DNA from: a virus
Reading direction: 5' to 3' (one strand)
Length of the DNA: 24,337 bases
IMG/VR virus record: IMGVR_UViG_3300017772_000123
Coordinates: 1 to 24,337 of that record
The translations under genes were made by a program, and so were the position numbers. Positions 20,679 through 23,026 of this stretch are shown here, one piece after another; the first letter of the stretch is position 1; each line of letters starts with the position of its first letter. Under the pieces are notes generated by a model. The model was not told the DNA's origin, did not search any database, and worked only from the letters and a program-made list of their open reading frames with translations.

Positions 20679-20707
20679 TACGTTTTCCTATTCTACCCCT
20701 AACATTA

Positions 20708-20740
20708 ACTATAGCTGTAGATTTACTCAGTCAACGCACA
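20708..20740 (-). promoter_or_regulatory. Putative late-block promoter before terS
   Basis: Minus strand: TGTGCGTT (20740-20733) runs into TTGACT, and TATAGTTA follows with a 19-base gap after TGCGTT (TATAGT at 20713-20708). It would start RNA about 23 bases before the terS ATG. An 8-bp triloop palindrome (20741-20759) directly abuts its upstream edge, suggesting a regulator site or a cruciform next to the promoter. Confidence 0.55.
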
Positions 20741-21016
20741 TAAGAACCTACGGTTCTTACGATCTCCCTTGTCCTCGGTCGTGGACTCCCTTCGGTACGT
20801 TTTAAAGAACGCCACTCGCCGTGGCACGGCACACGGTATCACCTAGCATAACAAGGACTCCTTCCAAATTGACAAATGGACAAGTTGACGACTCCCTTCG
20901 GTCGCATCAAACTTGTCGCATGATTTCATCATGCCAAGCATTTGCAATTCGGATCCTTCCTCGTTCTTGCACGGTGTCCGTGTTGGACATTTATTAACTT
21001 AACTAGAAAGGTATGT
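20741..21016. other. Divergent control region rich in short hairpins
   Basis: Non-coding region between the minus-strand late block and plus-strand early block. It holds perfect inverted repeats at 20741-20759 (8-bp arms, TAC loop), 20811-20825 (5 bp), overlapping 20818-20830 (5 bp, GGC loop), 20880-20916 (7-bp arms), 20918-20934 (7 bp, TTC loop) and 20970-20982 (5 bp, TGT loop). A 13-base direct repeat, GACTCCCTTCGGT, occurs at 20784-20796 and 20890-20902, with a shorter relative near 20855. GC is locally high: 34 of 60 bases at 20761-20820 against 21 of 60 at 21061-21120. No credible ORF or tRNA is found. Likely uses are promoter control, replication origin or packaging site. Confidence 0.6.
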
Positions 21017-21184
21017 ATGACTATTGAAGATATGATTGATTACTATGTTATTGCGAAAGATAGCAAAAATATCAAGAGAGTTGAAGAATTAGCTTGTAAG
21101 CGAGATGAAGCTGAAGCTAAAGGAGATATTAGTGAGATTGCTAATATTGATAGTGAACTTAATAACATGAAAGGAACAATATAA
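21017..21184 (+). CDS. Small hypothetical early protein
   Basis: A 55-residue acidic helical protein, MTIEDMIDYYVIAKDSKNIKRVEELACKRDEAEAKGDISEIANIDSELNNMKGTI. The start at 21017 is chosen over an upstream TTG at 20942 because the extra segment would be translated from the hairpin region. GAAAGG lies six bases before the ATG. The helices look like a two-helix hairpin or short coiled coil. It is the first gene of the plus-strand block, and its stop overlaps the next start in TAATG. No family is recognised. Confidence 0.75.
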   Translation: MTIEDMIDYYVIAKDSKNIKRVEELACKRDEAEAKGDISEIANIDSELNNMKGTI

Positions 21185-21687
21185 TGTCAAGAGAAACATA
21201 TAGAGATGATCCAGATTCAAGAGTAGCTAATATGGAATTAGTATTAGATGAATCTGAAAGCAACATGATAACTGGTGTAAATACATTAGTAGATAATGTA
21301 ATTATGCCATTTTTAGACAATGAAGATTGGTCTAGAATTGCTGGTTGGAATTTCGATAGTATCTATGGTGCATTTAATAGACACAATGAAATGTGTATAG
21401 CATCTTTAGATAAAACTAGAGAAAAGACTAAACAAGCAACAAGAGATGATGTTGGTACTGAAATAACAAAGAATGAGTTAAATAAATTGTTATTTATGAA
21501 TCAGGTACAAAATCTAAATGTGAGAAGATCACAATTGATTGTTGATACTTTTGCTAAAAAGTACAAAGCAATATTCAATAAAGATTATATTCCTGTTGGG
21601 AATAGAAAATCTGCAACATCACAAGACGATGTTAACAAAGCTGAAAAAGCTATGGTTGTAGATCAATTAAAGAAATTAGTTGGTTAA
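21184..21687 (+). CDS. Hypothetical early protein, 167 residues
   Basis: An acidic, helix-rich protein: MSRETYRDDPDSRVANMELVLDESESNMITGVNTLVDNVIMPFLDN, a middle EDWSRIAGWNFDSIYGAFNRHNEMCIASLDKTREKTKQ, and a C-terminal helix NNDVNKAEKAMVVDQLKKLV-like end. No metal-binding cluster, membrane segment or nucleotide motif is visible. It is coupled to the 55-residue gene by TAATG and is the last gene before a strong intrinsic terminator, so the two form a short operon pointing away from the control region. Proteins of this kind are typical early takeover candidates, but nothing in the sequence names a target. Confidence 0.75.
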   Translation: MSRETYRDDPDSRVANMELVLDESESNMITGVNTLVDNVIMPFLDNEDWSRIAGWNFDSIYGAFNRHNEMCIASLDKTREKTKQATRDDVGTEITKNELNKLLFMNQVQNLNVRRSQLIVDTFAKKYKAIFNKDYIPVGNRKSATSQDDVNKAEKAMVVDQLKKLVG

Positions 21688-21699
21688 TATAAACAAAAT

Positions 21700-21741
21700 A
21701 AGCCCTTGTATCTCTATTAGTGAGGTATGAGGGCTTTTTTT
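21700..21741 (+). terminator. Intrinsic terminator of the first early operon
   Basis: Arms at 21700-21714 and 21722-21736 pair over 15 bases (three G-U pairs) around a 7-base loop. The AAGCCCT/AGGGCTT base ends directly in seven T (21735-21741). It lies 13 bases after the stop of the 167-residue gene. Confidence 0.93.
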
Positions 21742-22020
21742 ATCGTGTTTAGAATAATTCTAAAAAACACGAAGGGCAAAAACAACAATATGAGGTGCTG
21801 CCGAATAGCATCCCTGATCCCTGATCCAATCACACGATAAATATATTCTAGTAAGCTAGATTGTAATGGTTGGATCTGAGATCAGAAACCCTGATTGCTG
21901 GTTAGTAATGATCTGAGAACATACTAGTTCGATTTTTAACAACTTTACTAACCTGCTATCAGACAATCGCAATGTGCGGTGCTGATAAATATAAACAATG
22001 ATAACAACTAGGAGGTGTTA
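21742..22020 (+). ncRNA. Highly structured intergenic region; candidate ncRNA or long 5' leader
   Basis: No ORF is found over about 280 bases, but complementary arms fill it. They are CGTGTTT/AAACACG with inner AGAA/TTCT (about 21744-21774), GGTGCT/AGCATC (21794-21812) and GATCCAATCA/TGGTTGGATC (21823-21832 with 21868-21877). The last pair encloses TCTAG/CTAGA (21847-21860). A further long-range stem pairs CTGAT + GGTTAGTAA (21891-21908) with TTACTAACC + ATCAG (21945-21962) around a symmetric TGCT/TGCT internal loop. The 7-base tandem CCTGATC (21813-21826) and two GATCTGAGA copies (21873, 21910) also occur. It ends before an AGGAGG ribosome site. A known RNA family is not recognised, and it does not fold as tRNA. 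Confidence 0.5.
21973..21980 (+). promoter_or_regulatory. TGTGCGGT element before the second early operon
   Basis: One mismatch to the TGTGCGTT element of the late strand (AATGTGCGGT), on the plus strand, 41 bases before the ATG of the 63-residue gene. An AT-rich TATAAA (21990-21995) follows after nine bases. Functional equivalence to the late-strand copies is uncertain. Confidence 0.3.
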
Positions 22021-22212
22021 ATGTTAAAGAAACTACAAAATTGGTTAATGAATGTTGCTGCTAAATGGATTTGGATAGCAATCATGTTTCCAATCAGAGC
22101 ATTTTTAGGATTGATGTATGCAATCGCTAGAAATATGCCAGAGAAAGTAGAATTACCTTACGAACTAAAACGTAAAGAAACTAAAAACAATATATTCAAT
22201 ATGGGAGAATAA
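22021..22212 (+). CDS. Small membrane or amphipathic-helix protein
   Basis: A 63-residue protein with a strong Shine-Dalgarno AGGAGG at 22010-22015; the ATG at 22021 is chosen over an overlapping GTG inside that site. Residues 5-38 (LQNWLMNVAAKWIWIAIMFPIRAFLGLMYAIARN) form one or two hydrophobic, Trp-rich helices, followed by a charged cytosolic tail ending FNMGE. It is most likely inserted in or lying on the inner membrane. It is the first gene of the second early operon and overlaps the next start in TAATG. Function unknown. Confidence 0.72.
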   Translation: MLKKLQNWLMNVAAKWIWIAIMFPIRAFLGLMYAIARNMPEKVELPYELKRKETKNNIFNMGE

Positions 22213-22447: not shown

Positions 22448-22680
22448 ATAAACTTAAAGAAAGTTTTATTGATGCAATCGAAAAACTACAAGATGAATAT
22501 GGTGCTTGTAAAATAAATACTCAAGAATTTACCGAAGGTTTAAATAAATTAGGTATTTATACAGCAGAAGAAGTAGATGGACACTTAGCTACTGCAGAGG
22601 ATGCTAGAGTTCAATACAAAATGGATAATAAACAATTTGAACCTACTACTACAGTAATACCTATTCCAGAAGAAAAGTAA
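22444..22680 (+). CDS. Small hypothetical early protein, 78 residues
   Basis: The start ATG at 22444 overlaps the stop of the 26-residue peptide and has AAGAGGAG about eight bases upstream. A start at 22396 in the same frame is rejected because it would read through the membrane peptide out of its frame. Residues MNKLKESFIDAIEKLQDEYGACKINTQEFTEGLNKLGIYTAEEVDGHLA form a helical unit with EF-hand-like spacing but no full calcium loop. The end TTTVIPIPEEK is unstructured. Coupled to the next gene by TAATG. No family recognised. Confidence 0.7.
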   Translation: MNKLKESFIDAIEKLQDEYGACKINTQEFTEGLNKLGIYTAEEVDGHLATAEDARVQYKMDNKQFEPTTTVIPIPEEK

Positions 22681-22832
22681 TGTACTGCGTTATTTGGAAG
22701 AAAAATGGTAAATGGGAATTGTTTACTAATGAAGTTTGGATGCAAGAAAGTGAAGCCAAAGATTATGGCAAACGAAATAAGTTTAAAAAAAACATTGAAT
22801 GGAAGGTAGCTGATGCTGCCGAATGGTTTTAA
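22680..22832 (+). CDS. Small hypothetical early protein, 50 residues
   Basis: ATG at 22680 overlaps the previous stop; TAA ends at 22832. Sequence MYCVIWKKNGKWELFTNEVW, then MQESEAKDYGKRNKFKKNIEWKVADAAEWF. It looks like a compact beta-beta-alpha-beta unit (WKKNGKWELF, SEAKDYGKRN, EWKVADA). It is similar in pattern to many tiny phage proteins whose repeated W-x-V and A-x-x-Y-A features suggest a common fold, without known role. Tight coupling supports it. Confidence 0.7.
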   Translation: MYCVIWKKNGKWELFTNEVWMQESEAKDYGKRNKFKKNIEWKVADAAEWF

Positions 22833-22834
22833 TT

Positions 22835-23026
22835 ATGGGTGAATCGTTAAAATATTTTAGACAAAAAAAAGGTCAATGGATTTGGATTTATGATTTTGAA
22901 ACTCGTAGAGGTAGAAAAATAGAATTACAAGTTTTATTAGATAAAGTTAATTATTCTTTTAGACATGAAAATATAAAGTATTTTGCTTTAAAAAAAGAAA
23001 GAAATCAATTTAAGCTAAATTGTTAG
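22835..23026 (+). CDS. Small hypothetical early protein, 63 residues
   Basis: The ATG at 22835, two bases after the previous stop, is preferred to an in-frame ATG at 22823 that lies inside the upstream gene. The product MGESLKYFRQKKGQWIWIYDFETRRGRKIELQVLLDKVNYSFRHENIKYFALKKERNQFKLNC is basic and beta-rich, with aromatic residues in alternation. No recognised family. The stop is the left edge of a strong hairpin (23025-23046) that probably protects or separates the transcript before the DUF932 gene. Confidence 0.68.
   Translation: MGESLKYFRQKKGQWIWIYDFETRRGRKIELQVLLDKVNYSFRHENIKYFALKKERNQFKLNC

Follow-up and report, generated by a model that had tools for sequence, protein, structure and literature searches.

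A 280-base non-coding region between two early genes of a podovirus-like phage very probably encodes a structured, modular RNA on the sense strand. The unit of this RNA could be established: its basal helix, CUGAUCCCUG / CUGGGAUCAG, is constant, keeps a U-U mismatch at base pair 9, and carries a complementary upper stem that varies in sequence and stays paired (the top). Two units lie in the window (the whole virus record that was analysed, 24,337 bases), at 21814-21885 and 21891-21962, and comparison with other viral contigs demonstrates that phages, unrelated ones included, acquire, lose and exchange units.

Early genes of the window run on the + strand and structural genes on the - strand. 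PHROG assignments are phrog_2 for the large terminase, phrog_332 for the portal and phrog_3437 for the major head protein, and among sequenced phages it is Pelagibacter phage EXVC031P Hodr that has the closest large terminase (67%). A terminator, which forms the boundary between the upstream operon and the RNA region, and then the region itself sit between a gene of 167 aa (21184-21687) and one of 63 aa that starts at 22021 and has no PHROG match. The features of the locus are as follows.

21700-21741, + strand: intrinsic terminator of the upstream early gene, a 15-pair stem (21700-21736) with a T-run
21743-21772, + strand: first hairpin (z -4.4), holding the perfect DNA palindrome TTTAGAATAATTCTAAA (21748-21764)
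21774-21812, + strand: conserved core GGGCAAAAAC...GAGGTGCTGCCGAATAGCATC, a pattern present in 32 viral contigs and kept in several clades
21814-21885, + strand: hairpin module A (z -5.2), arms CTGATCCCTGATCC / GGATCTGAGATCAG, U-U at base pair 9, exchangeable top
21891-21962, + strand: hairpin module B (z -5.7 alone), arms CTGATTGCTGG / CCTGCTATCAG, exchangeable top
21958-21986, + strand: terminal hairpin ATCAG...CTGAT (z -2.8)
22010-22015, + strand: Shine-Dalgarno sequence AGGAGG of the downstream gene, recognised by sequence
22021-22212, + strand: downstream early gene, 63 aa from ATG, kept in more than 100 viral contigs

A sequence-only reading of this DNA had proposed that the region functions as a non-coding RNA, a long leader or an origin, to be judged by its folding against shuffled controls and by covariation in relatives. 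The + strand of 21742-22020 folds at -76.2 kcal/mol, compared with a mean of -53.0 for shuffled sequence (z -5.01), and none of 200 shuffles did as well; the - strand reaches z -4.15. Covariation in relatives is likewise present, as detailed below. All the arm pairs named in that reading exist: the two-part stem of 9 + 5 bp around TGCT/TGCT is module B, where U-U mismatches at base pairs 6 and 9 make up the loop, and the 10-bp stem enclosing a nested hairpin lies inside module A. The terminator ahead of the region and the direct repeats (CCTGATC in tandem, GATCTGAGA twice) were also read correctly, and the region has no ORF longer than 38 aa. The argument from tight gene packing elsewhere holds only in part, as 20679-21018 is a second long structured non-coding stretch. 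It lies where the small terminase gene and the first early gene diverge, and its + strand folds strongly (z -4.5), into a single long nested hairpin.

The five entries from 21743-21772 to 21958-21986 are the five hairpins of the region, and they differ in the support that they have. The terminator-plus-palindrome signature of the first hairpin recurs in 21 viral contigs, and its sequence TTAGAATNATTCTAA is also found near 29 of 121 arrays (chains of units) of other phages. The core is a candidate pseudoknot, with a GGUGCU/AGCAUC hairpin whose GCC loop is inferred to be able to pair with GGGC. Taken alone as a simple hairpin, 21772-21814 folds no better than chance (z -0.2), so that this part is supported by sequence conservation only. 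One motif of the core, TGCTGCCGAA at 21796-21805, occurs again at 22814-22823 on the same + strand, at the end of ORF 22680-22832 (coding ...DAAEWF), and both copies are conserved in relatives; when the motif was checked as a recurring signal, most other copies proved to encode Ala-Ala-Glu in conserved proteins. The ACTCACAATGTGCG...TGATAA of the terminal hairpin is kept in 11 contigs, and because its 5' arm is the 3' arm of module B, the two hairpins can exchange partners.

Relatives of the locus were collected from IMG/VR, 32 by way of the upstream gene and 80 more by way of the downstream gene. In most of them the terminator is followed at the same place by TTTTTTTATCG or a close variant; the conserved frame then continues with GGGCAAAA...GGTGCTGCCGAAT, with the TTTAGAATNATTCTAAA hairpin between the two in the window clade. 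Behind this frame the relatives differ by whole hairpins, with no module in L014, L017 and L018, one in L009, L013, L015 and L071, and two in the window, L001 and L016. The flanking genes of L013-L018 are 96-100% identical, yet the gaps between them measure 158, 180, 250, 268 and 311 nt; among these close relatives whole hairpins have been gained, lost or replaced. A short clade (L002-L012, L021, L022) is without a module and has a promoter-like TTGC..-N16-TATAAT directly before the gene. Looking at module-less contigs more widely (L002-L012, L106, L269), we note a promoter-like TTGC/TTGACC-N16-TATAAT just after the core, which module-bearing relatives do not have there. A further clade (L105-L136) has GCCCATTTTCAAAACGTTCGGCGTTGAAAATCATTGGGCGTTGCTGCCGAA upstream of the 63-aa gene instead; its hairpin loop UUCGGC can pair with a 3' GCCGAA, and the element is likely a pseudoknot. 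Where relatives do carry a B-type module (n=7), pairs 10-16 are standard in all seven, and six of these pairs show two to four pair types (range over the seven pairs 1-4). The U-U mismatches at base pairs 6 and 9 are kept in 7/7, and in L027 the G-C pair between them has become A-U, with both sides changed. Across the seven modules there are 5 G-U pairs and no A-C.

The arms of module A, searched in IMG/VR, were found in at least 120 contigs, and 112 distinct tops of 25-58 nt were counted among the matches listed. Because the search pattern itself specifies the arms, it accounts for part of the arm conservation of these tops; looser modules, found by pairing alone or by a model, have the same arms. 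Both window modules have T-T at base pair 9, and so, on the sense strand, do the great majority of modules detected independently of the strict pattern. It should be kept in mind that IMG/VR contigs are fragments and partly redundant. Other phages carry chains of up to about five units, interspersed with other kinds of hairpin. In four contigs (L147, L153, L164, L242) we observed a second conserved element between modules, CTG-NNN-GAATTGAC-NNN-CTATAGTTCAGGTCGCGA framed by GTTGT..ACAAC arms; it resembles a three-way junction that includes a covarying hairpin. Two array-bearing genomes, G006 (57 kb, also with DNA polymerase and primase) and G001 (41 kb), are unrelated to the window phage and have portal phrog_1216 and large terminase phrog_38. 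When 12 records were searched whole with the model, 8 were positive, each with its units at a single place. Among 84,980 prokaryote genomes the arms matched only once, on a 6.6-kb scaffold of a single-cell genome. This match (L270, KB911123.1, 363-425) is a complete array in a marine Flavobacterium, where it perhaps derives from an infecting virus or from contamination.

Pairing statistics were computed on 94 dereplicated tops among the matches listed. Upper pairs 1-5 are standard in 100, 99, 98, 85 and 66% of them, against shuffle means of 73, 47, 63, 49 and 47%, and within these pairs G-T occurs 71 times (63 expected) and A-C 4 times (17 expected). Since G-U is tolerated and A-C avoided, selection acts on a sense-strand RNA and not on a DNA hairpin or origin. 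The tops fold better in the sense than in the antisense direction (p 4e-9); their apical parts, past the five upper pairs, are weakly structured (mean z -0.55). In an alignment of 20 sequences 99.4% of the cells are paired, against 87% when shuffled, and a covariation of 0.352 against 0.098 shuffled and no more than 0.056 slid. A covariance model (CM R1), built from 20 modules of other phage groups with the window clade excluded, recognises module A at E 6.4e-10 (42.3 bits sense, 26.9 antisense) and module B at E 1.5e-5 (26.2 and 12.5 bits), a sense-strand advantage of 14-15 bits. Palindromic 6-mers are enriched in the tops (122 vs 71). They occur in 6/57 loops against 2.7 expected, and their concentration in loops, which kissing interactions would call for, was not significant (Fisher p 0.07).

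The tops behave as cassettes. In 15 pairs of loci the flanks agree but the tops differ (in L176 and L206 the upstream 150 nt are 99% identical and the tops unrelated), and in 50 pairs one top is shared by loci whose flanks are unrelated on both sides. A top of L068, a phage of the window type, ATTGGGCATCTGAGTAACTGCTAGCCCCCGAT, is identical to one in L186, which was found through the array search, and L224 holds a duplicated identical module. Homologous recombination between the constant arms would be a simple explanation for this exchange, an inference on our part. One contig, L259 (1-530, - strand), begins with terminator, palindrome and core of the window type and continues with an array and a promoter-proximal palindrome that resemble their counterparts in the other phage group; it may be a genuine recombinant or a chimera of the assembly. 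No partner protein common to many loci of both phage groups was found, and only a few small genes are exchanged. Two small early genes are common to the phage groups, a 67-aa ORF of the window (22823-23026), 61% identical to L212:5782-5958, and a 107-aa ORF of L068 (3498-3821), 88% identical to L180:2790-3113.

The chain in other phages usually occupies the space between two divergent genes, in many cases shortly after a sigma70-type promoter, and in the large majority it stands upstream of early genes that run in the same direction. Among the matches listed, the nearest downstream ORF is on the array strand in 90 of 100 cases (opposite in 10), the nearest upstream ORF is divergent in 67 of 79 (not in 12), and the strict consensus TTGACA-N16-18-TATANT is found upstream of 33 of 106 arrays, with 3 antisense and 0.14 expected. 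The median distance from promoter to array is 114 nt. Heptamer repeats (CAAGCNN)n follow 91 of 121 arrays and reach to the TTGACA promoters of early genes (L140-L164, e.g. L153:7400-7900). The window copy has no such promoter closely upstream, as none of the sigma70 type was detected on its + strand between 20200 and 22020. With a terminator directly before the region and no sigma70-like promoter found, its transcription would need read-through or an unrecognised promoter. Taken together, covariation, the asymmetry between G-U and A-C, constant orientation and hairpin turnover show a functional structured RNA from the + strand, and therefore support a non-coding RNA or leader among the roles first suggested; an origin is disfavoured for the hairpins.

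The whole is probably best explained as a modular chain of hairpins in an early transcript, with a helix that serves for docking or cleavage. The region would be the 5' part of the transcript, assembled from one exchangeable unit, and the repeated basal helix with its U-U mismatch may be where a double-strand-RNA-binding factor docks or cuts, which is an inference. The chain might then be processed away from the early mRNA, protect it or be released from it, and the tops would be free to vary and be shuffled by homologous recombination between the arms. The identity of the factor is a guess. Host RNase III would be the most likely one, and the simplest to suppose, since T7 employs hairpins between the genes of its early mRNA in this way; the stem length and internal mismatch of the modules are compatible with a processing site, and there are no cleavage data. 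We remain doubtful about the RNase III step itself.

A trans-acting decoy or antagonist also has to be considered, unlikely as we think it. The chain would then be a stand-alone early non-coding RNA that titrates a host factor or a defence that senses structured RNA or cleaves RNA, and its hypervariable tops would reflect an arms race. This would fit the promoter before many arrays and the second one, with heptads, behind them, the restriction of the unit to phages, and the horizontal exchange of such variable tops, but neutral drift of purely structural stems gives variation too. No target or defence system has been identified, and the window chain continues directly into the Shine-Dalgarno sequence of the next gene. 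It is improbable that the chain is a put-like antiterminator, in which hairpins of the nascent RNA would alter RNA polymerase and let it pass terminators farther downstream. Hairpins do follow early promoters, arrays by about 114 nt, as with putL and putR of HK022 (PMC9378689), and in the window clade the short form, which lacks modules, has a strong promoter of its own, the module-bearing form none there. The only terminator nearby in the window, however, lies upstream of the RNA, and put consists of two hairpins of fixed sequence, whereas here their number (0 to 5) and tops vary freely. We give just as little credence to selfish or passenger hairpins, spread by recombination or by an unseen mobiliser without function for the phage. 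Modules come and go in near-identical phages, the same top occurs in many flanks and L224 has its duplicate, yet each genome, where checked, has one fixed array position, orientation to the downstream gene is constant, and pairing is under purifying selection; constant arms with variable tops are, moreover, the reverse of most miniature transposable elements. A DNA element (replication origin, packaging site or attC-like single-strand recombination hairpin) is highly improbable for the modules, for although they lie between divergent gene blocks close to the terminase genes and perfect palindromes such as TTTAGAATAATTCTAAA occur, G-T and A-C are not tolerated alike, sense scores of the covariance model are higher, and the arms misfit attC ends; TTTAGAATAATTCTAAA alone may be a DNA operator.

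If the modular early-transcript chain is borne out, unrelated marine phages maintain a shared repertoire of structured RNA hairpins in a fixed early locus and exchange them, a modular and rapidly reshuffled element that is not in Rfam or in the sequenced phages searched. The signal would be strong enough for direct tests of RNA function in the early region of phages, and the covariance model and a simple sequence signature can now be used for a systematic census. The element might be filed as a variant of a phage structured leader or non-coding RNA; a new class is possible, and we put it forward tentatively. An early-expressed chain that combines a protein-docking constant helix with horizontally traded tops of specific function (decoy, guide or immunity determinant) would be such a class, a case we find conceivable rather than probable.

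At the gathering thresholds of Rfam 15 there was no match in the window or in six array loci. The best sub-threshold match, trpB (39 of 59 bits), falls mainly on the terminator and sequence 5' of it, and weak PyrG-leader and microRNA matches at permissive thresholds reflect resemblance to terminators or hairpins. Neither the window region nor an array, used as nucleotide queries, matched any of the sequenced phages searched, and we found no description of such an RNA in the open-access literature (subscription literature was not covered). The put RNAs of HK022 act in antitermination through the beta' zinc-binding domain of RNA polymerase. Each comprises two stem-loops, conserved in sequence, in about 70 nt near early promoters (PMC9378689). 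Here too hairpins stand in an early phage transcript near early promoters, a position downstream of the promoter that the arrays of other phages share and the window does not; unlike put, the units number 0-5 and combine a common basal helix with exchangeable tops, and the terminator of the window copy comes before, not after. GOLLD and ROOL are large structured RNAs of phages and prophages, of unknown function and each of a single large architecture, often near tRNA islands (PMC12286853). They differ from the simple-hairpin chain described here in that fixed architecture, and here there is no Rfam match, no tRNA in the window by ARAGORN, and no significant excess of palindromic loops. A shared helix bearing exchangeable tops is a feature neither of put nor of GOLLD/ROOL. 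The hairpins of attC sites and of REP and MITE elements also move between genomes and have a variable centre, and the modules resemble them in this; unlike them, they bear a sense-strand RNA signature, occupy one locus per genome in constant orientation to transcription, and lack attC ends. RNase III sites of the T7 early region are hairpins in the gaps between early genes, about two helical turns long and interrupted by an internal loop; their paired sequence may vary. The modules are like them in these respects, but T7 has single hairpins at several gene junctions with no shared arms, whereas here the hairpins form a chain at a single locus, have constant arms with a U-U mismatch, and differ by the swapping of their tops.
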